Shown: positions 3,201 to 44,325 of the stretch, one piece after another | Layout of the letters: each line of letters opens with the position of its first letter | Numbering within the stretch: position 1 is the first letter of the stretch | Origin: Salvelinus alpinus | Lineage: Eukaryota > Chordata > Actinopteri > Salmoniformes > Salmonidae | Length of the DNA stretch: 64,000 nucleotides | NCBI RefSeq assembly: GCF_045679555.1 | Contig: NC_092120.1 | Coordinates: 11,715,805-11,779,804 of the forward strand | Reading direction: 5' to 3' | Notes under the pieces: generated by a model | What the model was told of the DNA's origin: nothing | The model's database searches: none | What the model saw: the letters and a program-made list of their open reading frames with translations, nothing else | Made by a program: the position numbers and the translations under genes

Positions 3201-6200
3201 ACACAATACATTTATGTTTTGTTCGATAATGTGCATATTTATATCCACAAATCTCGGTTTGCATTGGCTCCATGTTCAGAAATGCCTCCAAAATATCCGG
3301 AGAAATTGCAGAGAGCCACGTCAAATAACAGAAATACTCATCATAAACTTTGATGAAAGATACATGTTTTACATATAATTAAAGATACACTTGTTCTTAA
3401 TGCAACCGCTGTGTCAGATTTCAAAAAAACTTTACGTAAAAAGCACACCATGCAATAATCAGAGATGGCGCTCAAACATAACAACATTTCTCCGCCATGT
3501 TGGAGTCAACAGAAATACAAAATTACATCATAAATATTCCCTTACCTTTGATCATCTTCATCAGAATGCACTCCCAGGATTCCTAGTTCCACAATAAATT
3601 GTTGTTTTGTTCGATAATGTCCATTACTTATGTCTAAGTAGCTACTTTTGCTTGCATGTTTAGTGCACATGTCCAAACGCTCGCGCAAATGCAGGCGAAC
3701 TCGGACGAAAACTTCAAAAAGTTATATAACAGGTCGACTAAACTGGTCAAACTAAGTAGAGAATCAATCTTCAGGATGTTGTTATCATATATATCCAATA
3801 ACGTTCCACCCGGAGCATTCCTTCATGTCTGTAGAAGTTATGGAACGCAAGGCGATATCATGAGGAAAGCGCGTGACCAGGAACTGGCAATCTGCCAGAC
3901 CACTGACTCATTCCCCTCCCATCCGGCCCCACAACACAGCATAAGCTTCATTCCATGTTCTACAGACTGTTGGCATCTAGTGGAAGGCGTAGGAAGTGCA
4001 AACAGATCCATATCTTATAGGGAATTGAATCGGCGATGAGTTGAACATTGACCAGTCTCAGAATTCTCACTTCCTGTTTGGATTTTTTCTCAGGTTTTTG
4101 CCTGCCATATGAGTTCTGTTATACTCACAGACATCATTCACACAGTTTTAGAAACTTCAGAGTGTTTTATATCCAATAGTAATAATAATATGCATATATT
4201 AGCATCTGGGACAGAGTAGGAGGCAGTTCACTATGGGCACGCAATTCATCCAAAAGTGAAAATGCTGCCCCCTATCATAAAGAAGTTAACAGCACTATTT
4301 TGGTTGATTTTTGTGTTCTCAAGCCAGTGAGGTGACTTTATTAACATTCTTCATCAAGAATATGGGCAAAATGTAATTATTGACAATGAAAGAGTTGGCT
4401 GGGAATATAATTGCTACATTAGCTATCAATATAATATTCAGTTTTTTTCAAGATTGGATTTTGGCGATTCTTTTTCACTATGCGAATGTCGCGACTGAGA
4501 CAACCTAGTTCAATTTGGATCCCGAGGCAAATCCAGTTGTAGATTATATTGAGAGCTCTGCAATTGTTATGATCTCAATTCATTGTTGTCCAGATATCTG
4601 GTTTGTAAAGCTTGGTGTTTGCAATACCAAGGTTGTTGGTTCCATTCCCGCATTGTTCACATTTTGTATTAACTCTAATTCACTTTGAGTCAAAGTGTCT
4701 GCTATTCGACCATGTTAACTTGTTCTCTAAAGCTGTCAGTGTGAGTGGAAGGCTTGGTGGCTGATACATTCTGTCTAGAGGCAGCCTGAATGGGAGCATT
4801 AGAGTGTGTTCCTGTGTTAATGGATTTCCTTAACTCTCGCCTCCTGCCCTTTTCCACATCTATCTCTCCAAAGGACACGCAACCCCAGCAGAAAGACCAT
4901 GTGGGTGCTGGGCATCTCCAATTTGTGCTTCATGCTGCCCTGGCAGTTTGCCCAGTTTGTGCTACTTACCCAGGTAAGAGAAAAAAAGAGACATAAAGAA
5001 GGGTGGAGGGAAAGGTAGAGTATGTGAGAGGGGAGAGGAAGAGATGGGGATAGAGAGAAGGGAGGCTGTGAGAGAGAGAGAGAAAAAGAGAAAGAGATGG
5101 AGAGAGAAAGGGAGAAGAGTAAACTGTTAAAGGGACATTGTAAAAGATGGAGACGAGGATAACAAAAAAGAGCACAGACAGTGAAAAAGGAGGGAGGGTG
5201 TGAGACGGATGGAGAATAAGACTGGAGGAGGAGCGGAGGCAGACAAGTGTCTGGTTAGTCTTTCACACGGATCTGCTGGCATCTTTGATAGCAAAGCTGT
5301 TGCTAAGCAGTCTGGCTAGATTATAATAGCAAATGTCCCTCAGCTAGCTACAGTTCCCTATCCTAATCAGAGCCTTATATATAGGGATTTTACAACATAC
5401 TGTAATCTAAGTACTTATAACATCAATGTGTTATGCTCAAAATAAGCATGTACCCTTTATTGCAATCATTTCACAGTTGTTGTATACACTACTTATTGCT
5501 TGTGTTTACACATTTGACTACTTGTTTCAGGTGGCCTCTCTCTTTGCTTCGTACATCCTGGGATACATCAGCCCCACCAAAATTCAGTCCCTCCTAGTGA
5601 CACACATGGTAAATGTATTTTATGGTTCCTATCTAACCTGCACTTGTGGACGTGCATCGTAAAACAGGGCTGTGCGTTTTGCCAAGGAGTGTGTTTGTGT
5701 GTGTGATTCAGTCTGTAGCTACCTCAGTTCCAGCTCTCCTAATCCTCTCAGCAACACAGGCTGTTAGCGTGGCTAGCGTAGCGGGCTGGGGCCAGTGTGC
5801 TGGGGAGATAAGAGAAGAGGCCCTTTGTATTAAGATGATGCTGGAGATTTGTGTCATCGGAGGAGGAGAGAAGAGAGGACATATGGCTGTGAATAATTCA
5901 TCCGCCTGGCAAGAAGTGGCAGCGTGAAGAAAACGGGACACTCACAGGCTTGTGTCCTTGACGACCTACAGCATTGTTAAGCCCACTTTGTCTGTAACAA
6001 GTTTGGTGTGCGTGTCTGTGTGCCATGACAACAGTAAAATAGTCCCAGTTGGTATTAGATTGAATGTCGTGGCCCTGCCCACCTGTGGGGGAAAACAACC
6101 TGTGGTTGCCTAGGTTACCCCTTTGGCACACAGCTGAAACGTAAATGCTTTTTCCTTGTTGTTTACCTGTTTTAGTCAATTACAACAACAAAAAAGTATG

Positions 6201-9200
6201 TCTAAAGATTACTTTTCAAAATTGCCTACTTCCAAGTGTTTTCACTACTTAGAAAAACATCATATTGTAGAGCTTCCCTCATGCCCGTTGTCATGACTGT
6301 GCTAGCAGCCACGTGAGTGAGTGCTACCCACCGGCTACAGACCAGAACATTAAGCTAACCGAGAACAACAACACGAACAAACGGACTATAAAGAACTATA
6401 GAGCTACAAGTAGAAGTATCAAGACTGTGACTGAAGGCTTTAAGTTTTCCATTGGGGTTAGTGGAGTTACAAACGGACTATAAAGGACGATACAGCTACT
6501 AGTAGTGAGTGGAGTTACAAACGGACTATAAAGGACGATACAGCTACTAGTAGTGAGTGGAGTTACAAACAGACTATAAAGGACGATACAGCTACTAGTA
6601 GTGAGTGGAGTTACAAACGGACTATAAAGGACGATACAGCTACTAGTAGTGAGTGGAGTTACAAACGGACTATAAAGGACGATACAGCTACTAGTAGTGA
6701 GTGGAGTTACAAACAGACTATAAAGGACGATACAGCTACTAGTAGTGAGTGGAGTTACAAACGGACTATAAAGGACGATACAGCTACTAGTAGTGAGTGG
6801 AGTTACAAACGGACTATAAAGGACGATACAGCTACTAGTAGTGAGTGGAGTTACAAACAGACTATAAAGGACGATACAGCTACTAGTAGTGAGTGGAGTT
6901 ACAAACAGACTATAAAGGACGATACAGCTACTAGTATTGAGTGGAGTTACAAACGGACTATAAAGGACGATACAGCTACTAGTAGTGAGTGGAGTTACAA
7001 ACAGACTATAAAGGACGATACAGCTACTAGTAGTGAGTGGAGTTACAAACGGACTATAAAGGACGATACAGCTACTAGTAGTGAGTGGAGTTACAAACGG
7101 ACTATAAAGGACGATACAGCTACTAGTAGTGAGTGGAGTTACAAACGGACTATAAAGGACGATACAGCTACTAGTAGTGAGTGGAGTTACAAACGGACTA
7201 TAAAGGACGATACAGCTACTAGTAGTGAGTGGAGTTACAAACGGACTATAAAGGACGATACAGCTACTAGTAGTGAGTGGAGTTACAAACGGACTATAAA
7301 GGACGATACAGCTACTAGTAGTGAGTGGAGTTACAAACGGACTATAAAGGACGATACAGCTACTAGTAGTGAGTGGAGTTACAAACAGACTATAAAGGAC
7401 GATACAGCTACTAGTAGTGAGTGGAGTTACAAACAGACTATAAAGGACTATACAACTACTAGTAGTGAGTGGAGTTACAAACAGACTATAAAGGACGATA
7501 CAGCTACTAGTAGTGAGTGGAGTTACAAACGGACTATAAAGGACGATACAGCTACTAGTAGTGAGTGGAGTTACAAACGGACTATAAAGGACTATACAGC
7601 TACTAGTAGTGAGTGGAGTTACAAACAGACTATAAAGGACTATACAGCTACTAGTAGTGAGTGGAGTTACAAACAGACTATAAAGGACGATACAGCTACT
7701 AGTAGTGAGTGGAGTTACAAACAGACTATAAAGGACTATACAGCTACTAGTAGTGAGTGGAGTTACAAACAGACTATAAAGGACGATACAGCTACTAGTA
7801 GTGAGTGGAGTTACAAACAGACTATAAAGGACTATACAGCTACTAGTAGTGAGTGGAGTTACAAACAGACTATAAAGGACGATACAGCTACTAGTAGTGA
7901 GTGGAGTTACAAACAGACTATAAAGGACGATACAGCTACTAGTAGTGAGTGGAGTTACAAACAGACTATAAAGGACTATACAGCTACTAGTAGTGAGTGG
8001 AGTTACAAACAGACTATAAAGGACGATGCAGCTACTAGTAGTGAGTGGAGTTACAAACAGACTATAAAGGACAATACAGCTACTAGTAGTGAGTGGAGTT
8101 ACAAACAGACTATAAAGGACGATACAGCTACTAGTAGTGAGTGGCGTTACAAACGGACTATAAAGGACGATACAGCTACTAGTAGTGAGTGGAGTTACAA
8201 ACGGACTATAAAGGACGATACAGCTACTAGTAGTGAGTGGAGTTACAAACAGACTATAAAGGACGATACAGCTACTAGTAGTGAGTGGAGTTACAAACGG
8301 ACGATACAGCTACTAGTAGTGAGTGGAGTTACAAACGGACTATAAAGGACTATACAGCTACTAGTAGTGAGTGGAGTTACAAACAGACTATAAAGGACGA
8401 TACAGCTACTAGTAGTGAGTGGAGTTACAAACGGACTATAAAGGACGATACAGCTACTAGTAGTGAGTGGAGTTACAAACGGACTATAAAGGACGATACA
8501 GCTACTAGTAGTGAGTGGAGTTACAAACAGACTATAAAGGACGATACAGCTACTAGTAGTGAGTGGAGTTACAAACAGACTATAAAGGACGATACAGCTA
8601 CTAGTAGTGAGTGGAGTTACAAACAGACTATAAAGGACGATACAGCTACTAGTAGTGAGTGGAGTTACAAACAGACTATAAAGGACGATACAGCTACTAG
8701 TAGTGAGTGGAGTTACAAACGGACTATAAAGGACGATACAGCTACTAGTAGTGAGTGGAGTTACAAACGGACTATAAAGGACGATACAGCTACTAGTAGT
8801 GAGTGGAGTTACAAACAGACTATGAAGGACGATACAGCTACTAGTAGTGAGTGGAGTTACAAACAGACTATAAAGGACGATACAGCTACTAGTAGTGAGT
8901 GGAGTTACAAACAGACTATAAAGGACGATACAGCTACTAGTAGTGAGTGGAGTTACAAACAGACTATAAAGGACAATACAGCTACTAGTAGTGAGTGGAG
9001 TTACAAACAGACTATAAAGGACGATACAGCTACTAGTAGTGAGTGGCGTTACAAACGGACTATAAAGGACGATACAGCTACTAGTAGTGAGTGGAGTTAC
9101 AAACGGACTATAAAGGACGATACAGCTACTAGTAGTGAGTGGAGTTACAAACAGACTATAAAGGACGATACAGCTACTAGTAGTGAGTGGAGTTACAAAC

Positions 9201-12200
9201 GGACGATACAGCTACTAGTAGTGAGTGGAGTTACAAACGGACTATAAAGGACTATACAGCTACTAGTAGTGAGTGGAGTTACAAACAGACTATAAAGGAC
9301 GATACAGCTACTAGTAGTGAGTGGAGTTACAAACGGACTATAAAGGACGATACAGCTACTAGTAGTGAGTGGAGTTACAAACGGACTATAAAGGACGATA
9401 CAGCTACTAGTAGTGAGTGGAGTTACAAACAGACTATAAAGGACGATACAGCTACTAGTAGTGAGTGGAGTTACAAACAGACTATAAAGGACGATACAGC
9501 TACTAGTAGTGAGTGGAGTTACAAACGGACTATAAAGGACGATACAGCTACTAGTAGTGAGTGGAGTTACAAACGGACTATAAAGGACGATACAGCTACT
9601 AGTAGTGAGTGGCGTTACAAACGGACTATAAAGGACGATACAGCTACTAGTAGTGAGTGGAGTTACAAACAGACTATAAAGGACGATACAGCTACTAGTA
9701 GTGAGTGGAGTTACAAACGGACTATAAAGGACTATACAGCTACTAGTAGTGAGTGGAGTTACAAACAGACTATAAAGGACGATACAGCTACTAGTAGTGA
9801 GTGGACTTACAAACAGACTATAAAGGACGATACAGCTACTAGTAGTGAGTGGAGTTACAAACAGACTATAAAGGACTATACAGCTACTAGTAGTGAGTGG
9901 AGTTACAAACAGACTATAAAGGACGATACAGCTACTAGTAGTGAGTGGAGTTACAAACGGACTATAAAGGACGATACAGCTACTAGTAGTGAGTGGAGTT
10001 ACAAACGGACTATAAAGGACTATACAGCTACTAGTAGTGAGTGGAGTTAGAAACAGACTATAAAGGACGATACAGCTACTAGTAGTGAGTGGAGTTACAA
10101 ACGGACTATACAGCTACTAGTAGTGAGTGGAGTTACAAACAGACTATAAAGGACGATACAGCTACTAGTATTGAGTGGAGTTACAAACGGACTATAAAGG
10201 ACGATACAGCTACTAGTATTGAGTGGAGTTACAAACGGACTATAAAGGACTATACAGCTACTAGTATTGAGTGGAGTTACAAACGGACTATAAAGGACGA
10301 TACAGCTACTAGTAGTGAGTGGAGTTACAAACGGACTATAAAGGACGATACAGCTACTAGTAGTGAGTGGAGTTACAAACAGACTATAAAGGACGATACA
10401 GCTACTAGTAGTGAGTGGAGTTACAAACGGACTATAAAGGACGATACAGCTACTAGTAGTGAGTGGCGTTACAAACGGACTATAAAGGACGATACAGCTA
10501 CTAGTAGTGAGTGGAGTTACAAACAGACTATAAAGGACGATACAGCTACTAGTAGTGAGTGGAGTTACAAACGGACTATAAAGGACTATACAGCTACTAG
10601 TAGTGAGTGGAGTTACAAACAGACTATAAAGGACGATACAGCTACTAGTAGTGAGTGGAGTTACAAACAGACTATAAAGGACGATACAGCTACTAGTAGT
10701 GAGTGGAGTTACAAACAGACTATAAAGGACTATACAGCTACTAGTAGTGAGTGGAGTTACAAACAGACTATAAAGGACGATACAGCTACTAGTAGTGAGT
10801 GGAGTTACAAACGGACTATAAAGGACGATACAGCTACTAGTAGTGAGTGGAGTTACAAACAGACTATAAAGGACGATACAGCTACTAGTAGTGAGTGGAG
10901 TTACAAACAGACTATAAAGGACGATACAGCTACTAGTAGTGAGTGGAGTTACAAACGGACTATAAAGGACGATACAGCTACTAGTAGTGAGTGGAGTTAC
11001 AAACGGACTATAAAGGACGATACAGCTACTAGTAGTGAGTGGAGTTACAAACAGACTATAAAGGACGATACAGCTACTAGTAGTGAGTGGAGTTACAAAC
11101 AGACTATAAAGGACGATACAGCTACTAGTAGTGAGTGGAGTTACAAACAGACTATAAAGGACTATACAGCTACTAGTAGTGAGTGGAGTTACAAACAGAC
11201 TATAAAGGACGATACAGCTACTAGTAGTGAGTGGAGTTACAAACAGACTATAAAGGACGATACAGCTACTAGTAGTGAGTGGAGTTACAAACAGACTATA
11301 AAGGACGATACAGCTACTAGTAGTGAGTGGAGTTACAAACGGACTATAAAGGACGATACAGCTACTAGTAGTGAGTGGAGTTACAAACGGACTATAAAGG
11401 ACGATACAGCTACTAGTAGTGAGTGGCGTTACAAACGGACTATAAAGGACGATACAGCTACTAGTAGTGAGTGGAGTTACAAACAGACTATAAAGGACGA
11501 TACAGCTACTAGTAGTGAGTGGAGTTACAAACGGACTATAAAGGACTATACAGCTACTAGTAGTGAGTGGAGTTACAAACAGACTATAAAGGACGATACA
11601 GCTACTAGTAGTGAGTGGAGTTACAAACAGACTATAAAGGACGATACAGCTACTAGTAGTGAGTGGAGTTACAAACAGACTATAAAGGACTATACAGCTA
11701 CTAGTAGTGAGTGGAGTTACAAACAGACTATAAAGGACGATACAGCTACTAGTAGTGAGTGGAGTTACAAACGGACTATAAAGGACGATACAGCTACTAG
11801 TAGTGAGTGGAGTTACAAACGGACTATAAAGGACTATACAGCTACTAGTAGTGAGTGGAGTTACAAACAGACTATAAAGGACGATACAGCTACTAGTAGT
11901 GAGTGGAGTTACAAACGGACTATACAGCTACTAGTAGTGAGTGGAGTTACAAACAGACTATAAAGGACGATACAGCTACTAGTATTGAGTGGAGTTACAA
12001 ACGGACTATAAAGGACGATACAGCTACTAGTATTGAGTGGAGTTACAAACGGACTATAAAGGACTATACAGCTACTAGTATTGAGTGGAGTTACAAACGG
12101 ACTATAAAGGACGATACAGCTACTAGTAGTGAGTGGAGTTACAAACGGACTATAAAGGACGATACAGCTACTAGTAGTGAGTGGAGTTACAAACAGACTA

Positions 12201-15200
12201 TAAAGGACGATACAGCTACTAGTAGTGAGTGGAGTTACAAACGGACTATAAAGGACGATACAGCTACTAGTAGTGAGTGGCGTTACAAACGGACTATAAA
12301 GGACGATACAGCTACTAGTAGTGAGTGGAGTTACAAACAGACTATAAAGGACGATACAGCTACTAGTAGTGAGTGGAGTTACAAACGGACTATAAAGGAC
12401 TATACAGCTACTAGTAGTGAGTGGAGTTACAAACAGACTATAAAGGACGATACAGCTACTAGTAGTGAGTGGAGTTACAAACAGACTATAAAGGACGATA
12501 CAGCTACTAGTAGTGAGTGGAGTTACAAACAGACTATAAAGGACTATACAGCTACTAGTAGTGAGTGGAGTTACAAACAGACTATAAAGGACGATACAGC
12601 TACTAGTAGTGAGTGGAGTTACAAACGGACTATAAAGGACGATACAGCTACTAGTAGTGAGTGGAGTTACAAACAGACTATAAAGGACGATACAGCTACT
12701 AGTAGTGAGTGGAGTTACAAACAGACTATAAAGGACGATACAGCTACTAGTAGTGAGTGGAGTTACAAACGGACTATAAAGGACGATACAGCTACTAGTA
12801 GTGAGTGGAGTTACAAACGGACTATAAAGGACGATACAGCTACTAGTAGTGAGTGGAGTTACAAACAGACTATAAAGGACGATACAGCTACTAGTAGTGA
12901 GTGGAGTTACAAACAGACTATAAAGGACGATACAGCTACTAGTAGTGAGTGGAGTTACAAACAGACTATAAAGGACTATACAGCTACTAGTAGTGAGTGG
13001 AGTTACAAACAGACTATAAAGGACGATACAGCTACTAGTAGTGAGTGGAGTTACAAACGGACTATAAAGGACGATACAGCTACTAGTAGTGAGTGGAGTT
13101 ACAAACGGACTATAAAGGACGATACAGCTACTAGTAGTGAGTGGAGTTACAAACAGACTATAAAGGACTATACAGCTACTAGTAGTGAGTGGAGTTACAA
13201 ACAGACTATAAAGGACGATACAGCTACTAGTAGTGAGTGGAGTTACAAACAGACTATAAAGGACTATACAGCTACTAGTAGTGAGTGGAGTTACAAACGG
13301 ACTATAAAGGACGATACAGCTACTAGTAGTGAGTGGAGTTACAAACAGACTATAAAGGACGATACAGCTACTAGTAGTGAGTGGAGTTACAAACGGACTA
13401 TAAAGGACGATACAGCTACTAGTATTGAGTGGAGTTACAAACGGACTATAAAGGACTATACAGCTACTAGTAGTGAGTGGAGTTACAAACAGACTATAAA
13501 GGACGATACAGCTACTAGTAGTGAGTGGAGTTACAAACGGACTATACAGCTACTAGTAGTGAGTGGAGTTACAAACAGACTATAAAGGACGATACAGCTA
13601 CTAGTATTGAGTGGAGTTACAAACGGACTATAAAGGACGATACAGCTACTAGTATTGAGTGGAGTTACAAACGGACTATAAAGGACTATACAGCTACTAG
13701 TATTGAGTGGAGTTACAAACGGACTATAAAGGACGATACAGCTACTAGTATTGAGTGGAGTTACAAACAGACTATAAAGGACGATACAGCTACTAGTAGT
13801 GAGTGGAGTTACAAACAGACTATAAAGGACGATACAGCTACTAGTAGTGAGTGGAGTTACAAACGGACTATAAAGGACGATACAGCTACTAGTAGTGAGT
13901 GGAGTTACAAACGGACTATAAAGGACGATACAGCTACTAGTAGTGAGTGGAGTTACAAACAGACTATAAAGGACGATACAGCTACTAGTAGTGAGTGGAG
14001 TTACAAACAGACTATAAAGGACGATACAGCTACTAGTAGTGAGTGGAGTTACAAACAGACTATAAAGGACGATACAGCTACTAGTAGTGAGTGGAGTTAC
14101 AAACAGACTATAAAGGACGATACAGCTACTAGTAGTGAGTGGAGTTACAAACAGACTATAAAGGACTATACAGCTACTAGTAGTGAGTGGAGTTACAAAC
14201 GGACTATAAAGGACGATACAGCTACTAGTAGTGAGTGGAGTTACAAACGGACTATAAAGGACGATACAGCTACTAGTAGTGAGTGGAGTTACAAACGGAC
14301 TATAAAGGACGATACAGCTACTAGTATTGAGTGGCGTTACAAACGGACTATAAAGGACGATACAGCTACTAGTAGTGAGTGGAGTTACAAACAGACTATA
14401 AAGGACGATACAGCTACTAGTAGTGAGTGGAGTTACAAACGGACTATAAAGGACGATACAGCTACTAGTAGTGAGTGGAGTTACAAACAGACTATAAAGG
14501 ACGATACAGCTACTAGTAGTGAGTGGAGTTACAAACGGACTATAAAGGACGATACAGCTACTAGTAGTGAGTGGCGTTACAAACGGACTATAAAGGGCGA
14601 TACAGCTACTAGTAGTGAGTGGAGTTACAAACAGACTATAAAGGACGATACAGCTACTAGTAGTGAGTGGAGTTACAAACGGACTATAAAGGACTATACA
14701 GCTACTAGTAGTGAGTGGAGTTACAAACAGACTATAAAGGACGATACAGCTACTAGTAGTGAGTGGAGTTACAAACAGACTATAAAGGACGATACAGCTA
14801 CTAGTAGTGAGTGGAGTTACAAACAGACTATAAAGGACTATACAGCTACTAGTAGTGAGTGGAGTTACAAACAGACTATAAAGGACGATACAGCTACTAG
14901 TAGTGAGTGGAGTTACAAACAGACTATAAAGGACTATACAGCTACTAGTAGTGAGTGGAGTTACAAACAGACTATAAAGGACGATACAGCTACTAGTAGT
15001 GAGTGGAGTTACAAACGGACTATACAGCTACTAGTAGTGAGTGGAGTTACAAACAGACTATAAAGGACGATACAGCTACTAGTATTGAGTGGAGTTACAA
15101 ACGGACTATAAAGGACGATACAGCTACTAGTATTGAGTGGAGTTACAAACGGACTATAAAGGACTATACAGCTACTAGTATTGAGTGGAGTTACAAACGG

Positions 15201-18200
15201 ACTATAAAGGACGATACAGCTACTAGTAGTGAGTGGAGTTACAAACGGACTATAAAGGACGATACAGCTACTAGTAGTGAGTGGAGTTACAAACAGACTA
15301 TAAAGGACGATACAGCTACTAGTAGTGAGTGGAGTTACAAACGGACTATAAAGGACGATACAGCTACTAGTAGTGAGTGGCGTTACAAACGGACTATAAA
15401 GGACGATACAGCTACTAGTAGTGAGTGGAGTTACAAACGGACTATAAAGGACGATACAGCTACTAGTAGTGAGTGGAGTTACAAACAGACTATAAAGGAC
15501 GATACAGCTACTAGTAGTGAGTGGAGTTACAAACGGACTATAAAGGACGATACAGCTACTAGTAGTGAGTGGCGTTACAAACGGACTATAAAGGACGATA
15601 CAGCTACTAGTAGTGAGTGGAGTTACAAACAGACTATAAAGGACGATACAGCTACTAGTAGTGAGTGGAGTTACAAACGGACTATAAAGGACTATACAGC
15701 TACTAGTAGTGAGTGGAGTTACAAACAGACTATAAAGGACGATACAGCTACTAGTAGTGAGTGGAGTTACAAACAGACTATAAAGGACGATACAGCTACT
15801 AGTAGTGAGTGGAGTTACAAACAGACTATAAAGGACTATACAGCTACTAGTAGTGAGTGGAGTTACAAACAGACTATAAAGGACGATACAGCTACTAGTA
15901 GTGAGTGGAGTTACAAACGGACTATAAAGGACGATACAGCTACTAGTAGTGAGTGGAGTTACAAACAGACTATAAAGGACGATACAGCTACTAGTAGTGA
16001 GTGGAGTTACAAACAGACTATAAAGGACGATACAGCTACTAGTAGTGAGTGGAGTTACAAACAGACTATAAAGGACGATACAGCTACTAGTAGTGAGTGG
16101 AGTTACAAACAGACTATAAAGGACGATACAGCTACTAGTAGTGAGTGGAGTTACAAACAGACTATAAAGGACTATACAGCTACTAGTAGTGAGTGGAGTT
16201 ACAAACAGACTATAAAGGACGATACAGCTACTAGTAGTGAGTGGAGTTACAAACGGACTATAAAGGACGATACAGCTACTAGTAGTGAGTGGAGTTACAA
16301 ACAGACTATAAAGGACTATACAGCTACTAGTAGTGAGTGGAGTTACAAACAGACTATAAAGGACGATACAGCTACTAGTAGTGAGTGGAGTTACAAACAG
16401 ACTATAAAGGACTATACAGCTACTAGTAGTGAGTGGAGTTACAAACGGACTATAAAGGACGATACAGCTACTAGTAGTGAGTGGAGTTACAAACAGACTA
16501 TAAAGGACGATACAGCTACTAGTATTGAGTGGAGTTACAAACGGACTATAAAGGACGATACAGCTACTAGTATTGAGTGGAGTTACAAACGGACTATAAA
16601 GGACTATACAGCTACTAGTAGTGAGTGGAGTTACAAACAGACTATAAAGGACGATACAGCTACTAGTAGTGAGTGGAGTTACAAACGGACTATACAGCTA
16701 CTAGTAGTGAGTGGAGTTACAAACAGACTATAAAGGACGATACAGCTACTAGTATTGAGTGGAGTTACAAACGGACTATAAAGGACGATACAGCTACTAG
16801 TATTGAGTGGAGTTACAAACGGACTATAAAGGACTATACAGCTACTAGTATTGAGTGGAGTTACAAACGGACTATAAAGGACGATACAGCTACTAGTATT
16901 GAGTGGAGTTACAAACAGACTATAAAGGACGAAACAGCTACTAGTAGTGAGTGGAGTTACAAACAGACTATAAAGGACGATACAGCTACTAGTAGTGAGT
17001 GGAGTTACAAACGGACTATAAAGGACGATACAGCTACTAGTAGTGAGTGGAGTTACAAACAGACTATAAAGGACGATACAGCTACTAGTAGTGAGTGGAG
17101 TTACAAACAGACTATAAAGGACTATACAGCTACTAGTAGTGAGTGGAGTTACAAACAGACTATAAAGGACGATACAGCTACTAGTAGTGAGTGGAGTTAC
17201 AAACAGACTATAAAGGACTATACAGCTACTAGTAGTGAGTGGAGTTACAAACAGACTATAAAGGACGATACAGCTACTAGTAGTGAGTGGAGTTACAAAC
17301 GGACTATAAAGGACGATACAGCTACTAGTAGTGAGTGGAGTTACAAACAGACTATAAAGGACGATACAGCTACTAGTAGTGAGTGGAGTTACAAACAGAC
17401 TATAAAGGACGATACAGCTACTAGTAGTGAGTGGAGTTACAAACGGACTATAAAGGACTATACAGCTACTAGTAGTGAGTGGAGTTACAAACAGACTATA
17501 AAGGACTATACAGCTACTAGTAGTGAGTGGAGTTACAAACGGACTATAAAGGACGATACAGCTACTAGTAGTGAGTGGAGTTACAAACAGACTATAAAGG
17601 ACGATACAGCTACTAGTAGTGAGTGGAGTTACAAACAGACTATAAAGGACGATACAGCTACTAGTAGTGAGTGGAGTTACAAACAGACTATAAAGGACGA
17701 TACAGCTACTAGTAGTGAGTGGAGTTACAAACGGACTATAAAGGACGATACAGCTACTAGTAGTGAGTGGAGTTACAAACAGACTATAAAGGACTATACA
17801 GCTACTAGTAGTGAGTGGAGTTACAAACAGACTATAAAGGACGATACAGCTACTAGTAGTGAGTGGAGTTACAAACAGACTATAAAGGACGATACAGCTA
17901 CTAGTAGTGAGTGGAGTTACAAACGGACTATAAAGGACGATACAGCTACTAGTAGTGAGTGGAGTTACAAACAGACTATAAAGGACGATACAGCTACTAG
18001 TAGTGAGTGGAGTTACAAACGGACTATAAAGGACGATACAGCTACTAGTAGTGAGTGGAGTTACAAACAGACTATAAAGGACGATACAGCTACTAGTAGT
18101 GAGTGGAGTTACAAACGGACTATAAAGGACGATACAGCTACTAGTAGTGAGTGGAGTTACAAACAGACTATAAAGGACGATACAGCTACTAGTAGTGAGT

Positions 18201-21200
18201 GGAGTTACAAACAGACTATAAAGGACGATACAGCTACTAGTAGTGAGTGGAGTTACAAACAGACTATAAAGGACGATACAGCTACTAGTAGTGAGTGGAG
18301 TTACAAACAGACTATAAAGGACTATACAGCTACTAGTAGTGAGTGGAGTTACAAACGGACTATAAAGGACGATACAGCTACTAGTAGTGAGTGGAGTTAC
18401 AAACAGACTATAAAGGACGATACAGCTACTAGTAGTGAGTGGAGTTACAAACAGACTATAAAGGACGATACAGCTACTAGTAGTGAGTGGAGTTACAAAC
18501 GGACTATAAAGGACGATACAGCTACTTGTAGTGAGTGGAGTTACAAACAGACTATAAAGGACGATACAGCTACTAGTAGTGAGTGGAGTTACAAACGGAC
18601 TATAAAGGACGATACAGCTACTAGTAGTGAGTGGAGTTACAAACAGACTATAAAGGACGATACAGCTACTAGTAGTGAGTGGAGTTACAAACAGACTATA
18701 AAGGACGATACAGCTACTAGTAGTGAGTGGAGTTACAAACGGACTATAAAGGACGATACAGCTACTTGTAGTGAGTGGAGTTACAAACAGACTATAAAGG
18801 ACGATACAGCTACTAGTATTGAGTGGAGTTACAAACGGACTATAAAGGACGATACAGCTACTAGTAGTGAGTGGAGTTACAAACAGACTATAAAGGACGA
18901 TACAGCTACTAGTAGTGAGTGGAGTTACAAACAGACTATAAAGGACTATACAGCTACTAGTAGTGAGTGGAGTTACAAACAGACTATAAAGGACGATACA
19001 GCTACTAGTAGTGAGTGGAGTTACAAACAGACTATAAAGGACGATACAGCTACTAGTAGTGAGTGGAGTTACAAACGGACTATAAAGGACGATACAGCTA
19101 CTAGTAGTGAGTGGAGTTACAAACGGACTATAAAGGACGATACAGCTACTAGTAGTGAGTGGAGTTACAAACAGACTATAAAGGACGATACAGCTACTAG
19201 TATTGAGTGGAGTTACAAACGGACTATAAAGGACGATACAGCTACTAGTAGCTACGTATAGTGTACTTGGACACTGGGTCCCCATATTTCCCACTGTCCC
19301 ACACCGAATAGCCTGAAGTCATAGGGCTCTTCTCGCAGGCTCTATTTCCCTACGTGGAAGTATTGCGAACCGTAGGTTGGGGTTTTTGACCTGGTTACAT
19401 GTACATTGAACAACACAGCAGCTTTTTCTGTATACCATCAAATCTATGATGAAGTTGTCTCTTTTACACTGGGGTCAATGGGAAAGAATGTTTGTTTTCC
19501 CCAATTTGTTGGTGTGGTCGAGGGGAATTCCTTATTATTATGTGAATATCGACTCGGACTATGTCACCAAACTTCTTTCCACCCCACTCCATCTCCAGAT
19601 CACACTTGCCGTGTGCTTTGTTCTGATGTTTGGAAACTCCATGCTGCTGACATCATTCTACGCCTCCTCGCTGGTCTCCATTTGGGTGAGCTGGACTAAC
19701 ACTCTCCTCATGCTTTCCATGTGTAGAGGATGTCTTTTATGTTAAGCATGGTGTGATGTTGAAAACGGTATGGTGTTGAAATCAGTTCCTTCCTGGTTGC
19801 AGGGAATAATTGCCCTGCGGGACAAATTTGCAGAAGCCTTCAAACCTGGCCTCATCACATGGGTAAGAGGACATAAGTGTGTGTGTGTGGACATGTTTAA
19901 CTATACTTGTGTGGACATGATACTTGTGTGGACAATCAAAAACTGGGGACATTTTGCCGGTCCCCACAAGGAAAAAGTATATTTCTAGGGGGGGGTGTAG
20001 AGTTAGTGTTTAGCGTTAAGGTTAGGTTTTGGGGTTGGGTTAGGAAAAATAGGATTTTGAATGGGAATCATTTGTGTGTCCCCACAATGTTAGTAAAACA
20101 AGACTGCGAGTGTGTGCGCGGGCACATGTCTGTGTGTCTTCTGGTTGACCTATGTCTGCTCTCAGGTCATGCAGGGCCTGGTATGGGTTGTCTCCACTGT
20201 CATTCTCAAGTTCATGCTGTCAGCCATCTTTGGAGCCTCTGATGATGTAAGTCTTTGAAAATATCCCTGAGCATTTGAAACAAGCTAGCTATATTGCCTT
20301 ACATGTTGGTTCCTTTTCTGGAAGAATCACTGCATTTTGAAACAAGCCATCACTCAATAGTATAATAGTAATAAAAGTTAACAGGAATATGCTAACTGTA
20401 TTTGAAATTGCAGCTATTTCTACTACAACTTTCTCAACTTTCTCTCTCCCAGGCTCACATCAGTAGCTTAATAAAGTCCAAGTTTACCAGCTACAAGGAC
20501 TTTGACACCATGATGTATACCTGTGCTGCTGAGTTTGACTTCATGGAAATTGAGGTATGAAAGACACTTGGGCCTATTTGGCATAGGAACACGGCACTAG
20601 TGTTAGAAGGGATCCTTTCGTAGTATTTGGCAGCTCATTTTGTAAAGGTCATGTAATGTGTGTGTGGTGTGTCAGAAATAAATGTTTTTCTCCAGTCGAT
20701 ATGACGTGTGTAACATTGCTCTTCTCAGACCCCACTGCGCTACATCAAGACACTGCTGCTCCCCATCAACATGCTGGTGGTTGCTGTCATAGCAGGACGG
20801 GTAAGACTTAATTTGTGTGCCATACACCAGGCGCTCCACACAATCCACTGTTAGTGAACAAGGCAGGCAACCTTTACATGTCATTTCTCCCGTTATGCTC
20901 TGGACTTGCCTGTTGAGCTCAATTTGTCATATTTGAGGCAGACTTGAAGAAACGGCAAGAGAATTATGTTGCAAAAATATTCAAGAATCTCCTCGAGCGT
21001 GTCCAAATGTGTCAGTTTGATCTAATTGTGTGTCAAATGCAGAATCAATAAGACAAGTCCGGGTCTCCCGAGTGGCGCAGCGGTCTAAGGCACTGCAGTG
21101 CTTGAGGCATCACTACAGATCCGGATTCGATCCAGGGCTGTCGCAGCCGGCCGCAACTGTGAGGCGCATGAAGCGACGCACAATTGGCCCAGCGTCGTCC

Positions 21201-25845: not shown

Positions 25846-27640
25846 CAGGGATCATCAATTATATTCACCCGTGGGGTGATTTTTACTTGAGCGGATGTTC
25901 AGGGACATAATTACAAATTGACTGCAAGAAGAACAAACAGATATTTTATTAAAACATTTTCAAACCATGCTTTCATTTGTATACGGTCACAAATATCTCT
26001 TATGCGTGGGAATACTTTGGAACAGATTTCCAAAACTAAAATCACTTGGAGCTGATTTGCTGGTGTTTTTACAGTATTTTATGTCCACATTAAAAAAATT
26101 ATATATACAGCACCAATCAAAAGTTTGGACACACCTACTCATTCAAGGGTTTTTCTCTATTTTTACTATTTTCTACATTGTATAATAATGGTGAAGACAT
26201 CAACACTATAAAATAACACATACGAAGTCATGTAGTAACCAACAAAGTGTTTAACAAATCAAAATATATTTGAGATTCTTCAGCCACCCTTTGCCTTGAT
26301 GACAGCTCTGCACACCCTTGGCATTCTCTCAACCAGCTTCATGAGGTAATGACTTAGAATACATTTCAATTAACAGGTGTGCCTTGTTAAAAGTTAATTT
26401 GTGGAATTTCTTTCCTTCTTAATGCGTTTGAGCCAATCAGTTGGGGTGGTATACAGAAGGTGGCCCTATTTTGTAAAAGACCAAGTCCATATTATGGCAA
26501 GAACAGCTCAAATAAGCAAAGGGAAATGACAGTCCATCATTACTTTAAGACATGAAGGTCAGTCAATGTGGAACATTTCTTCAAGTGCAGTTGCAAATAC
26601 CATCAAGCACTATGATGAAACTGGCTCTCATGAGGACCGCCACAGGAAAGGAAGACCCAGAGTTACCTCTGCTGCAGAGGATAAGTTCATTACAGTTAAC
26701 TGCACCTCAGATTTCATCCCAAATAAGTGCTTCACAGAGTTCAAGTAACAGACACATCTCAACAACTGTTCAGATGAGACTGCATGAATCAGGCCTTCAT
26801 GGTCGAATTGCTGCAAAGAAACCACTACTAAAGGACACCAATAAGAAGAGACTTGCTTGGGCCAAGAAACATGAGCAATGTACATTAGACTGGTGGAAAT
26901 CTTGTCATTTCGTCTGATGTGTCCAAATTTGATATTTTTGGAACCAACCGCCGTGTCTTTGTGAGATGCAGAGTAGGTGAACGGATGTTCTCCGCATGCG
27001 TGGTTCCCACCGTGAAGCATAGAGGTAAGGGGGTTTGCTGGTGACACTGACGGTGATTTATTTAGCATTCAGTTTCATCATGTTTTTTGCGACTGCACTT
27101 GAAGAAACTTTCAAAGTTCTTGAAATTTTCCGGACTGACTGACCTTCGTTTCTCTTTGCTTATTTGAGCTGTTCTTGCCATAATATGGACTTAGTCTTTT
27201 ACCAAATAGGGCTATCTTCTGTATACCACCCCACATAACTGATTGGCTCAAACGCATTAAGAAGGAAAGAAATTCCACAAAACTTTTAACAAGGCACACT
27301 TGTTAATTGAAATTCATTCCAGGCGACTACCTCATGAATCTGGTTGAGAGAATGCCAAGTGTGTGCAAATCAAAATATACAAAATATATTTTGATTTGTT
27401 TATCACTTTTGATTACTACATGATTCCATATGTTTTTGAATAGTTTTAATGTCTTCACTATTATTCCACAATGTAGAAAATAGTAAAATTAAATAAAAAC
27501 CTTGAATGGACCACAGTCTGAACTTTTGACTGATACTGTATATTATTTTGTTTGTTCAGAAAACGTGGGGAAACAAATAATATAACCCTCGGGCCAAATT
27601 TGGGGAATATCATCTGCGGGCCACAAGTCGGGGAACCCTG
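25846..27640. mobile_element. hAT-type non-autonomous element
   Basis: Starts CAGGGATCATCAA and ends GGGGAACCCTG, so the terminal CAGGG/CCCTG bases are inverted. The 8-bp flanks CTTTAAGA and CTCTAAGA differ at one position, as expected for an old hAT target-site duplication. A fold-back Tc1 occupies its centre. Confidence 0.7.
26106..27540. mobile_element. Fold-back Tc1 relic
   Basis: Both ends carry the same terminal sequence (CAAAAGTTTGGACACACCTA on the left, a diverged mirror on the right). The inversion extends far past normal TIRs: 26106-26620 is mirrored by about 27060-27540. Both arms hold the transposase start region (minus-strand GGCAAGAACAGCTCAAATAA on the right). A broken plus-strand transposase fragment, including [20 protein letters not shown], lies between. 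The 3' half of a normal element is missing. Confidence 0.75.
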
Positions 27641-35983: not shown

Positions 35984-36702
35984 ATGAAAGAAGTTATTAT
36001 ACTCTCCCTACTGGGGATTCTGGGAATGGGAAGGGGATCTAAAGATGAATTAGGTTGGTAAACCCCCTTACCTTGTTGGGTCCCATGGGAATCTATTTTC
36101 TATTGTTCTGTATGTAAAGTTAACGCATAAAAATAGTGTAATTATTTCAAAAGTGGATCTTTAAATACAGTCTTTAAAAACTATTTTATAACATATAAGA
36201 AGATTATCAGCTGGTAACATGATTTATGGTTGATCTGTGTGCTGAATAGCTATCCTCATTATTCTTATTCTGGCCCACAGTGAATGTTGCTCTGAGCTAT
36301 CCTCATTATTCTCCTTCTGGCCCACAGGGAATGTTGCTCTGAGCTATCCTCATTATTCTCCTTCTGGCCCACAGTGTATGTTGGTCTGAGCTATCCTCAT
36401 TATTCTCCTTCTGGCCCACAGTGTATGTTGCTCTGGGGGGCAAAGCAGCCCAATCCTCCACATTCTATGGAGGCACTGCAAAAAGATCCATTGATAGAAT
36501 ATGGAACTCGACTTACGAAGATCACTCCTGCAGCCACACTTTGGGAGAGATCAACCCCTGGTGGAGAGTGGACCTGCCGGAGACATACCAAGTCACCTCC
36601 GTCAGTCATCATCACCAACAGAGATACTTCAGCAGAGAGGATCAACGGGGCTGAGATCCGCATTGGAAACTCCCTGGAGAACAATTGTAACAGTAACCCC
36701 AG
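35984..36702 (+). pseudogene. Plus-strand F-type lectin fragment (signal exon and N-half)
   Basis: Exon 1 (35984-36053) encodes MKEVIILSLLGILGMGRG then SKDEL, a convincing signal peptide, and ends in phase 1 at GTTGGT. Exon 2 (about 36421-36702) encodes [33 protein letters not shown] and [15 protein letters not shown], donor GTATGG. A 4-bp GTCA duplication at about 36600 (GTCAGTCATC) breaks the frame between VTSV and IITNR. No C-half exon follows on this strand. It is a remnant of a secreted lectin gene. Confidence 0.78.
36249..36436 (+). repeat. Four tandem copies of a splice-acceptor segment
   Basis: A 47-bp unit starts at 36249, 36296, 36343 and 36390. Each has a pyrimidine tract (TCATTATTCTCCTTCTGGCC) and CACAG followed by the first codons of the lectin exon (GAATGTTGCTCTGA in the first two). 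Any copy could serve as acceptor. Confidence 0.85.
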
Positions 36703-38958: not shown

Positions 38959-40725
38959 GTGGCGAAGTCAGGTAGGAGACCTGCACCAACTTCCCGGGCT
39001 TACCGTGGAGAGCGAGAGTACGGGCAGACACTGTGGTATGCGGAAGAGCGCACAGTGTCTCCTGTACGTGTGCTTAGCCCGGTGCGGTACATCCCAGCTC
39101 CACGTATCGGCCGGGCTAGAGTGGGCATCGAGCCAGGTGCCATGAAGCCGGCTCAACGCATCTGGTCTTCAGTGCGTCTCCTCGGGCCGGTGTACATGGC
39201 ACCAGCCTTACGCATGGTGTCCGCGGTTCGTCAGCATAGCCCAGTGCGGGCTATTCCACCTCGCCGCACTGGCCTGGCTACGGGGAGCATTCAACCAGGT
39301 AAGGTTGGGCAGGCTCGGTGCTTAAGAGCTCCAGTACGCCTTCACGGTCCGGTCTATCCGGTGCCACCTCCTCGCCCCAGTCTAGTACCACCAGTGCTAA
39401 CACCACGCACCAGGCTTCCTGTGTGTCTCCAGAGCCCTGTTCCTCCTCCACGCACTCGCCCTGTGGTGCGTGTCTCCAGCCCGGTACCACCAGTTCTGGC
39501 ACCACGCACTAAGCCTCCTGTGCGTCTCCAGAGCCCTGTACGCCCTGTTGCTGCTCCCCGCACTAGCCTTGAGGTGCGTGTCCCTAGCCCGGTACCACCA
39601 GTTCCGGCACCACGCACCAGGCATACTGTGCGCCTCAGCAGGCCAGAGTCTGCCGTCTGCCCAGAGCCGCCTGCGCTGCCCGTCTGCCCAGCGCCGTCTG
39701 AGCTGCCGCCTGCGCTGCCCGTCTGCCCAGCGCCGTCTGAGCTGCCCGTCTGCCCAGCGCCGTCTGAGCCGCCCGTCTGCCCAGCGCCGTCTGAGCCGCC
39801 CGTCTGCCCAGCGCCGTCTGAGCCGCCCATCTGCCCAGCGCCGTCTGAGCCGCCCGTCTGCCCAGCGCCGTCTGAGCCGCCCGTCTGCCCAGCGCCGTCT
39901 GAGCCACCCGTCTGCCCAGCGTCGTCTGAGCCGCCCGTCTGTCCTGAGCCTTCAAAGCCGCCCGTCTGTCCTGAGCCTTCAGAGCCGTCCGTCAGTCAGG
40001 AGCCGCTAGAGCCGTCCGTCAGTCAGGAGCCGCCAGAGCCGCCCGCCAGTCAGGAGCCGCCAGAGCCGCCCGCCAGTCAGGAGCAAGCCAGAGCCGCCCG
40101 CCAGTCAGGAGCCGCCAGAGCCGCCCGCCAGTCAGGAGCCGCCAGAGCCGCCCGCCAGACAGGAGCCGCCAGAGCCGCCCGCCAGCCAGGAGCCGCCAGA
40201 GCCGTCAGTCAGCCAGGAGCCGCCAGAGCCGTCAGTCAGCCAGGAGCCGCCAGAGCCGTCAGTCAGCCAGGAGCCGCCAGAGCCGTCAGTCAGCCAGGAG
40301 CCGCCAGAGTCGTCAGTCAGCCAGGACCGGCCAGAGTCGTCAGTCAGCCAGGACCGGCCAGAGTCGTCAGTCAGCCAGGACCGGCCAGAAGAGTCGTCAG
40401 TCAGCCAGGACCGGCCAGAGTCGTCAGCCAGGACCGGCCAGATTCGTCAGTCAGCCAGAACCGGCCAGAGTCGTCAGTCAGTCCGGAGCTGCCCCTCAGT
40501 CCGGAGCTGCCCCTCCGTCCGGAGCTGCCCCTCCGTCCGGAGCTGCCCCTCAGTCCAGAGCTGCCCCTCAGTCCGGAGGCGCCCATCAGTCCAGTGGGGT
40601 TAATTTGGAGGGTAGCCGTTAAGAGGAAGCCACGGAAGCGGGAATTAACTATGGTGGGGTGGGGGCCACGTCCAGCGCCAGAGCCGCCACCATGGACAGA
40701 TGCCCACCCAGACCCTCCCCTATAG
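38959..40725 (+). CDS. Pro-rich repetitive ORF of the LTR element
   Basis: About 588 codons from the first Met at 38959, with no recognisable gag, zinc-knuckle or enzyme motif. It is Pro/Arg/Ser-rich. Residues 230-330 are near-perfect PVCPAPSEP repeats (27-bp units), followed by blocks of other short units including PSVSQEP-type and SPELPL-type repeats; part of this stretch reads through a shifted frame (AARQSGAARAARQ). It may be a degenerate gag-position ORF, or simply sequence kept open by repeat lengths divisible by three. Confidence 0.4.
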   Translation: MAKSGRRPAPTSRAYRGEREYGQTLWYAEERTVSPVRVLSPVRYIPAPRIGRARVGIEPGAMKPAQRIWSSVRLLGPVYMAPALRMVSAVRQHSPVRAIPPRRTGLATGSIQPGKVGQARCLRAPVRLHGPVYPVPPPRPSLVPPVLTPRTRLPVCLQSPVPPPRTRPVVRVSSPVPPVLAPRTKPPVRLQSPVRPVAAPRTSLEVRVPSPVPPVPAPRTRHTVRLSRPESAVCPEPPALPVCPAPSELPPALPVCPAPSELPVCPAPSEPPVCPAPSEPPVCPAPSEPPICPAPSEPPVCPAPSEPPVCPAPSEPPVCPASSEPPVCPEPSKPPVCPEPSEPSVSQEPLEPSVSQEPPEPPASQEPPEPPASQEQARAARQSGAARAARQSGAARAARQTGAARAARQPGAARAVSQPGAARAVSQPGAARAVSQPGAARAVSQPGAARVVSQPGPARVVSQPGPARVVSQPGPARRVVSQPGPARVVSQDRPDSSVSQNRPESSVSPELPLSPELPLRPELPLRPELPLSPELPLSPEAPISPVGLIWRVAVKRKPRKRELTMVGWGPRPAPEPPPWTDAHPDPPL

Positions 40726-41622: not shown

Positions 41623-44325
41623 TGGTCCCACTTTAAATTACGTGCAGCTTATAAAGGCTTCCTAAAACCTTCATAAAGCCTTCATAATCACTACATAAAT
41701 GTGTTACACATCATCTATAACCGTATGCCATGCTTTATAAAGGGTTCATAAATGTGGCATAACTGTTTGCCATAACCACCAATGTCTAAGGGGACAAAAC
41801 TCACTATGTCAAATATGATACAAACCTGTGCTTTATAAAGGGTGGCATGAGCACGGCTTAATAAAGAGCTTATAAATCATATTAAATTGTGGCTTCACAA
41901 AGCATTTATAACCCTGTAATACATCTTGGTAGAACATTGCAACGGCAGGATATTGGGTTCGATTCAACACCCTATACGTAAAAAATGTATTCACGTATGA
42001 CTGTAAGTCGCTTTGGATAAAAGTGTCTGCAAAATGTTATATATTATATTTCACTAAATCATTTCTACAATGGCCCAATCTCTTTCCCTCTTGGGTGCAT
42101 AGTCAATATTGGACTTGACTTCAACTTCCCCCAAAATGCTGTGCTGCAGGAGAACACAGACTCTAAAGTGCAGTCATGCAAAGTAAAAAACATTCTTTTT
42201 TTTGTTGTTGTTGCCTACTTCTTTTTTTCCCCAAATTCCGTTTTCTTGTTTTTGTTTTTCCAGGTTTCAGATTTTCCCCATTCTTTCTGGTTTCCCCCAG
42301 TGTTTTCACACTTTCTTAATAGAAAAACAATGTTTAATTGTATGTGTTCACAACAATTCTTAAACCACATCAGGGTTTGACTTTTGAGGTCTGGGAAAAA
42401 TCGAAGAAACTTATATTTTTAAGTGTAGTTGCCCTTTAATTCAGTGAGCATGCTCTGCACTGTTGTTTTGTTAGCAGGTTTTCTGTAGTGCAGTAAGCAC
42501 ACATGATGTGATCTGGCCGCCAATAGAATGGGTGGAGTAAAAGGCCGACCACATTCCATATTATTTAGAGCCCCATGAAATGACACCATGAAATGACACC
42601 ATTCACAGCCCTGTGTAATGTTCAATGTAATGGCATTGCTGGACTTTTTGAAATGTCATGTATTTGTATTGTTTTAAAAATGTACAAATAAAATAAATGT
42701 ACTGTATGGTTTAAACATTTCTTTAATGTTTACTTGTTTTATCTTTTAATGCCAATTCCCTAAGTGTTAATACAGTTGTGTTAACATCATTAAGCCATTA
42801 TGCATGTGTTATGAATGACCAAAGGTGTCTGACGTTATAGTAAGTACAGCGTCATATGATATAAGGCATTTATGCATGTGTCATAAATGACCAAAGTAGA
42901 TTGACTTTAAATGAAGTACAGCGTCATACGAAGGTGTCTCATTTCAAACTAATTATTACTGGACACTACATGAAGTGTTAATAAATAGGTGATTAAAGTT
43001 CTGCTGATTTATTAAGTTTATTAAGTTTCTCTCATGATCCACAGGTTACTGAAGGGTGCGAGAGGTATTAAATGGGTTGATGGACCTGCAAAGCTTGTGT
43101 TTATGTGTCAGAACCAAGATGATTTGGAGTAGTCCAACCTGAGACTACTGCACCAGCTAGTCCTCTTCTGTTCCCGTGCTGGGGACCAGGGCTTGATTAC
43201 AACATGTTACAATGGTGCAGACATTTTGTGGCTGATCTTTCAGCGGGGAAGTGGGTGAATGTGTCAAAGACTTGACAGGGCCCAGCACTGTGCAGTATGG
43301 CTCGTTATGTTGTTGTGTCAAAGACTTGACAGGGCCCAGCATTGTGCAGTATGGCTCGTTATGTTGTTGTGTCAAAGACCTGACTGGGCCCAGCACTGTG
43401 CAGTATGGCTCGTTATGTTGTTGTGTCAAAGACCTGACTGGGCCCAGCACTGTGCAGTATGGCTCGTTATGTTGTTGTGTCAAAGACTTGACAGGGCCCA
43501 GCACTGTGCAGTATGGCTCGTTATGTTGTTGTGTCAAAGACCTGACTGGGCCCAGCACTGTGCAGTATGGCTCGTTATGTTGTTGTGTCAAAGACCTGAC
43601 TGGGCCCAGCACTGTGCAGTATGGCTCGTTTTTGTTGTTTGCATGTTTGTGTACTGAGGAACATGTAACTTGGTTCCAGAAGAAAGACACTTTCAATTTC
43701 TTTAGATTGGGGTCTTTCATCAATGTAAGTGTTTCTTTGTGTAATGTTGTTCCCAGGCTATTGCTCACACAGCACATTGAAGCCTGGGATATCAACCATT
43801 CAAAATTGGGCTTAGTGGGAGTGACCATAGAATTCTATAGCAGTGACCTTACTGAGTAAAGTATTTGTCATCGTCACTCCTTAACAGAGTCAAAAAGTCA
43901 TCATTTTGGCTAAACCCTGCCCATTTCCACACTTTATCTTGTTAAAATGTGATTTGAAACCTAACCCTGACTAATGAAGGCCAAGTTTGATGCAATGGTC
44001 CATCAGACCTTCTGAGCATTTGGGCGGAAGTGTCTGGGAACGAGATTAGGTGTAATGTGACTAAGATGACATCCCTTTAGAGCTTTTGCCATCCTTCAGC
44101 ACGTTACCCTTTATAAAGCACATGTTAATATCATATTTGACTTAGTGGGTTATATCACATAAGATATAGGTGATTATGTCACACAGTTATGCCACATTTA
44201 TGAACCCTTTATAAAGCATGACAGATGGTTATAGATGCTTTGTAAACATTTATGTACCGCTTGTGAATGCATTTTTAAGGCTTTATGAAGCCTTTATAAT
44301 CTGAACGTCATTTAAAGCGGGACCA
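41623..44325. mobile_element. 2.7-kb TIR element containing a minisatellite
   Basis: Long imperfect inverted ends: TGGTCCCACTTTAAATTACG at the left mirrors CATTTAAAGCGGGACCA at the right. Inner phrases also mirror each other (TTATAAAGGGTTCATAAATG and CATTTATGAACCCTTTATAA). The flanks TTAATT (41617-41622 and 44326-44331) look like a 6-bp target duplication. No transposase is visible, so it is non-autonomous; superfamily unresolved. Confidence 0.7.
43260..43637 (+). repeat. 54-bp minisatellite, seven copies
   Basis: Units start at 43260, 43314, 43368, 43422, 43476, 43530 and 43584. They differ mainly at ACTTGACAGGG versus ACCTGACTGGG. As 54 is divisible by three, it stays open on both strands (VKDLTGPSTVQYGSLCCC one way). 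Not a gene. Confidence 0.93.

Follow-up and report, generated by a model that had tools for sequence, protein, structure and literature searches.

A minisatellite array fills an intron of a Dpy19-family gene

The window analysed here is a stretch of 64,000 nucleotides from Salvelinus alpinus (NCBI RefSeq assembly GCF_045679555.1, contig NC_092120.1, positions 11,715,805 to 11,779,804 of the forward strand). It contains a gene of the Dpy19 family, one intron of which is occupied by a long 48-bp minisatellite, and this study concerns the array, the transposon-like element that surrounds it and a second copy of the same gene (coordinates are given in Table 1). Tandem Repeats Finder (TRF) reported a single array with a period of 48, 268.0 copies in this one assembly, 96% matches and a length of 12,792 bp. 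Wrap-around alignment resolved it into 268 units, of which 260 measure 48 bp, seven measure 38 bp and the final one measures 46 bp. Among the 20 unit types, the consensus accounts for 107 units, and another 70 units depart from it at position 16 alone. Any two units differ on average by 1.11 substitutions (2.3%), and the stretch is free of N letters. The array takes up 12,792 of the 13,990 bp of the intron (91.4%). The initial annotation had described a homogeneous array of roughly 268 copies and 12.8 kb filling more than 90% of the intron, and all of these figures were borne out.

With head-to-tail units of 48 bp repeated 268 times, the array falls within the usual definition of a minisatellite (units of roughly 10-100 bp). 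Classical satellite DNA, i.e. megabase heterochromatic arrays, was considered and set aside for a repeat of 12.8 kb within an intron. A coding array was likewise rejected: the unit has one open forward frame (16 residues), yet the 38-bp units shift the frame. Over the whole array each of the six frames contains 249-455 stops, the longest open runs reach 859 codons, and the variable positions in the open frame alter the amino acid, giving by inspection no sign of protein constraint. A search of public viral and prokaryote contigs returned 0 matches, as expected for animal DNA.

When the peptides of the two exons flanking the array were joined, residues 2-53 of the product aligned to residues 274-325 of C. 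elegans dpy-19 (E 0.0091) across the junction, in agreement with the earlier claim that the exons are joined in phase. Pfam Dpy19 (PF10034) also matches on both sides of the array, in stretches that are not tied to these two exons.

The array lies inside a dispersed transposon-like element

Both flanks of the array are repeated in the genome. The 193 bp beside its left end match at least 39 other genome places (40 of 295 candidates scored), and the 201 bp at its right end likewise match at least 39 (40 of 413 candidates scored). Similarity begins within positions 6033-6043 in 14 of the 28 fetched loci with a left match and stops at 19562-19563 in 8 of the 26 with a right match. In the window copy the left terminus and the reverse complement of the right terminus, ATAGTCCGAGTCGATATT, are equal by inspection at 15 of 18 bp. 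Since both flanks are dispersed and share terminal repeats, the array sits inside a short DNA-transposon-like element, an origin that the initial annotation had missed.

Eight copies retained both ends. Six of them are array-free and measure 565-793 bp; the remaining two are a copy of 6,095 bp that bears an array (L011) and one of 2,435 bp whose right end is doubtful (L028). The element thus resembles a miniature inverted-repeat transposable element (MITE), being short, dispersed, present in many copies and bounded by imperfect terminal inverted repeats. What occupies the intron is an old, short, non-autonomous, DNA-transposon-like element. By inspection, its right part lacks about 50 bp adjoining the array that other copies possess.

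Table 1. Features of the array-bearing intron, in window positions.
Feature	Position	Strand	Basis or remark
Dpy19-family exon upstream of the array (26 residues), followed by the 5' splice site GTAAAT	5531-5608	+	Translation; alignment of the joined peptide to dpy-19
Host intron, 13,990 bp	5609-19598	+	
Dispersed DNA-transposon-like element enclosing the array	6039-19562		Imperfect inverted termini
Left part of the element, starting with terminal repeat ATAGTCCCAGTTGGTATT	6039-6376	+	
Seed of the element as a diverged first unit that bears the 10-bp duplication	6377-6413	+	86% match with the unit over 37 bp
Insertion, about 44 bp	6414-6459	+	Common to the second gene copy; absent in 16 other aligned element copies
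48-bp minisatellite, 268 units, 20 unit types, internal multi-unit block duplications	6460-19251	+	TRF; unit-by-unit alignment
Right part of the element, ending in GAATATCGACTCGGACTAT (inverted terminal repeat)	19252-19562	+	
Dpy19-family exon downstream of the array (29 residues)	19599-19685	+	Inspection; the identical L021 exon translates in frame

The unit corresponds to a direct repeat within the element

Aligned array-free copies of the element carry a seed that reads approximately ACAAACGGACTATAC-AGCTACAAGTAGTGAGTGGAGTT-ACAAACGGACTATAC, i.e. a 15-bp direct repeat spaced 38 bp apart. The 48-bp unit of the window is this 38-bp seed unit with a 10-bp internal duplication (GGACTATAAA|GGACKATACA), and the seven short units within the array are again 38-bp forms. 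The unit is therefore homologous to the interior of the element, and copies with a single unit coexist with expanded ones, as is characteristic of transposon-internal repeats that have grown into arrays. A 26-base pattern spanning the duplication (up to 2 mismatches) matched 262 times in the 2.37-Gb genome and 262 times in the window, and these equal counts mean that the 48-bp form does not occur outside this locus. The possibility of a satellite unique to this locus consequently holds for the 48-bp form and was rejected for the 38-bp parent family, which is dispersed; the refuting case named in the initial annotation, a unit common elsewhere, applies only by half.

Related arrays elsewhere in the genome

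A 26-base left anchor of the element (up to 2 mismatches) was found at 205 or more genome places, a lower bound because the window's own copy differs from it at 3 bases by inspection. Among the 75 exact anchors, 56 are followed by one unit, one by two units, six by eight or more and 12 by none that was recognised when up to 6 edits were allowed over the 23 bases of the unit core; the last group includes the second gene copy, in which the unit is interrupted. Arrays of the related 38-bp unit lie at 15 other loci, on contigs C3, C9, C10, C12, C13, C14, C18 (two), C19, C22, C28 (two), C30, C33 and C34. Those on C12 and C13 are known as matches only, those on C9 and C14 and the second array on C28 were read for 406 bp, and the one on C3 comprises 5.6 units.

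The arrays on C10 (about 33.8 kb, from its ends in L017 and L018, with the interior mostly from matches) and C19 (14.0 kb, with 99 bp between two pieces unread) are longer than the 12.8 kb of the window array, and eight others measured 0.2-5.5 kb. The window array therefore ranks third among the 11 measured, five further arrays standing outside this ranking. The initial annotation had called the length and homogeneity unusual; size and homogeneity stand, whereas the implied rarity is weakened by 15 other loci with related arrays, two of them longer. The C10 array (C10:77883449-77917214; L017, L018) is the family's largest at about 34 kb and mixes 36- and 38-bp units; judging from its match positions, there may be a higher-order period of about 2.0-2.3 kb.

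Element sequence is present on both sides of the window array and of 6 of the 10 other fetched arrays. Segmental duplication was rejected as the origin of the other arrays: 12 masked array loci (10 arrays), compared for stretches of at least 120 bp at E up to 1e-20, share mainly element sequence. Outside the element, L009 and L017, L009 and L016, and L014 and L016 have stretches in common that are 71-78% identical and look like unrelated old repeats.

A second gene copy carries the element and no array

A second copy of the gene on contig C4 (L021, C4:44939000-44948900) aligned to window positions 2654-25740 in pieces of at least 198 bp with 83-93% identity, in the same order as in the window except for the array and one 203-bp piece. 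Its exon peptides are those of the window copy but for one residue in the upstream exon; the downstream exon is identical. The corresponding intron measures 1,074 bp vs 13,990 bp in the window copy and, aligned to it, contains no array. It does contain the element at the same place, and there too the 10-bp duplication is present and the first unit is followed by the 44-bp insertion. Because both features are common to the two copies, the element most likely entered the intron before the gene copies separated. We take this separation to have happened at the salmonid genome duplication, probably. The left part of the intron differs by about 18% between the two gene copies and the units by 2.3% among themselves, which indicates that the units now present owe their similarity to amplification or homogenisation long after the gene copies had separated. 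From the seven single-unit substitution variants seen by inspection across the 12.8 kb, a rough calculation with a vertebrate mutation rate suggests array turnover on a 10^5-year scale.

Blocks of units are duplicated within the array

The array contains an exact block of 24 units, units 77-100 being repeated as units 115-138, 38 units away, while the longest repeat in 200 shuffles of the unit order was 10. With mismatches allowed, units 63-100 recur at the same offset with a score of 59.3, and none of 100 shuffles scored above 14.9. Exact blocks of 12-24 units repeat at offsets of 19, 38, 69 and 107 units, and a rare marker block was found at five places. Such repeats point to exchange or conversion of whole blocks, beyond slippage of single units. 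The alternative is misassembly, by which the array would have been inflated and would be shorter in the living fish, a scenario compatible with a transposon origin and one from which the block duplications could also result. We regard it as very unlikely: the longest exact block repeat covers only 24 of the 268 units, single-unit variants lie between the blocks, long related arrays exist at other loci, and the stretch lacks N letters.

Origin of the array and points weighing against it

Taken together, these data lead us to the view, to which we assign a probability of about 0.9, that the array is a transposon-seeded minisatellite produced by recombination-driven growth of a repeat internal to the element. 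Several observations weigh against it. A TA at each end, a candidate target-site duplication, fits seven of the eight end pairs but lies inside the constant termini and is inseparable from them. The element is found on one side only in 4 of the 10 other fetched arrays (L010, L013, L014 and the C10 array), although for L010 a short right anchor was also seen in the census. The units of the window array lack the 44-bp insertion that parts the first unit from the array, which means that the array did not arise by simple copying of the seed as it now stands: at least two units predated the insertion, or one unit lost it. The C4 copy may itself be a collapsed array, which makes loss there a possible alternative to growth here. 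Units with GTTACTAAC are common to six arrays but occur in only 1 of 58 rows of unexpanded seeds; not all arrays of the family need therefore be independent, and array-bearing copies with GTTACTAAC may have moved or exchanged sequence. The six arrays concerned lie on C10, C19, C22, C28 (two) and C30 (L012-L014, L017-L020, L096).

The initial annotation had considered repeat-driven hairpins or a protein-binding array possible on account of the palindrome CTACTAGTAG. In a fuller form of this idea, hairpins at the palindrome would promote expansion, or every unit would be a target for a protein. All 242 copies of the palindrome in the window lie in the array, which also contains ACTAGT 266 times. 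This abundance speaks for such a role, as do the predicted RNA folds of two and three units, which were better than those of 198 and 196 of 200 shuffles, respectively, and make pairing between units in the transcript possible. At the DNA level, however, a single unit gave no stable fold and the fold of two units was no better than shuffles. The non-palindromic form CTACAAGTAG is carried by the seeds and by most other arrays' consensus units; it was counted 817 times in L009-L020, against five palindromes in all fetched loci, all of them in the C19 array. Arrays longer than that of the window have formed on C10 and C19. Judged from these sequences, the palindrome is a local single-base change, and either role for it appears very improbable.

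Pseudo splice sites in the units

Each unit may also present a pseudo 5' splice site (GTGAGT), and the array could have been selected for binding U1 small nuclear RNA (snRNA), thereby tuning splicing or blocking early polyadenylation. GTGAGT is found 243 times in the array compared to 17 times on the same strand elsewhere in the window, the array also holds 260 copies of TATAAA, which might act as a weak poly(A) signal, and predicted pairing with U1 is stronger for the unit (-6.8 kcal/mol) than for the intron's true 5' site (-5.3 kcal/mol). By the same measure, which is crude, the true site of the next exon pairs better still (-9.3 kcal/mol). Moreover, the motif derives from the seed of the element and is present in unexpanded copies, so no selection is needed to explain it at this locus; a substitution breaks the site in 24 of 268 units, and the second gene copy does without the array. 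We consider selection for U1 binding most unlikely. A broader scenario, in which the transposon family with the 38-bp seed repeatedly launched minisatellites, some of them moved by transposition, and in which the 243 U1-like sites here would alter the processing of one gene copy only, is in our estimation very unlikely as a whole.

Other repeats in the window

An inverted repeat pair (50642-51228 and 51631-52217; 587 bp, 99.5% identical) is perhaps a recent mobile element. A remnant of a Tc1-type transposase domain (PF01498) lies at 26708-26872. TRF further reported GC-rich tandem repeats with periods such as 18, 27, 54 and 108 at 39434-40592 and short minisatellites at 36248-36435 (47 bp x 4) and 43260-43639 (54 bp x 7).

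Discussion

We propose that the array arose from the transposon in a series of steps. The starting point is the short non-autonomous element with its built-in seed of 38-bp spacing that lies in the intron. At this locus the seed unit has the 10-bp internal duplication (38 to 48 bp), with the 44-bp insertion behind it. Repeated misaligned recombination between units may have followed, at first as slippage and later as unequal exchange or conversion of many-unit blocks, and, as the block duplications suggest, such exchange or conversion would have yielded 268 units and kept them alike. The array would have persisted as a nearly neutral, length-unstable passenger without a required function, since splicing presumably still removes the intron. 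PRDM9 hotspots, described in salmonids (PMC11703093), were considered as a driver of recombination; the excerpts of that report contain no motif letters with which to compare the unit.

Growth of a repeat internal to a transposon into an array is already a known kind of event. As far as the excerpts of the respective papers go, tandem repeats within MITEs have expanded into arrays in the Xstir and miDNA4 elements of Xenopus (PMC12628747), and a transposon-internal repeat has become a satellite array in Tetris of Drosophila virilis (PMC4079207). The element described here resembles all three, a short non-autonomous DNA element in which the repeat is present as one or a few monomers or as long arrays. 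It differs from Tetris in its unit (about 220 bp there, 38 or 48 bp here) and from all three in that the window array lies in the intron of a gene, with an array-free second gene copy that carries the same insertion as a built-in comparison. Large intronic variable number tandem repeats of similar size are described, in excerpts again, for CACNA1C (30-bp unit, 3-30+ kb; PMC13131567) and for intron 18 of ABCA7 (PMC12724735). These are human loci with known length variation, whereas the window array has instead been traced to a transposon.

Among salmonid elements, the Tc1-like and piggyBac transposons of Atlantic salmon (DTSsa families, SSTN1, Tss, SALT1 and pTSsa1-2; PMC2198921) are likewise dispersed DNA elements with terminal inverted repeats, and a TA target is possible for the element here as well. 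Its termini read ATAGTCC (GTCC if TA is the target), compared to CAGT, CACT, AACT and CCTG in the determined rows of that paper; among its excerpts we encountered no element with such termini, the element here being 0.6-0.8 kb long, and its main text never uses the word 'tandem'. Among the titles and abstract openings listed from the open-licence literature, no published description of the element or of the array was found.

The array and the second gene copy show how a transposon-borne direct repeat has become an intronic minisatellite on the kilobase scale. With at least 205 copies of the element in this one genome, it becomes possible to measure the rate and the trigger of minisatellite birth, and the two gene copies allow the effect of an intron 13 times longer to be examined.

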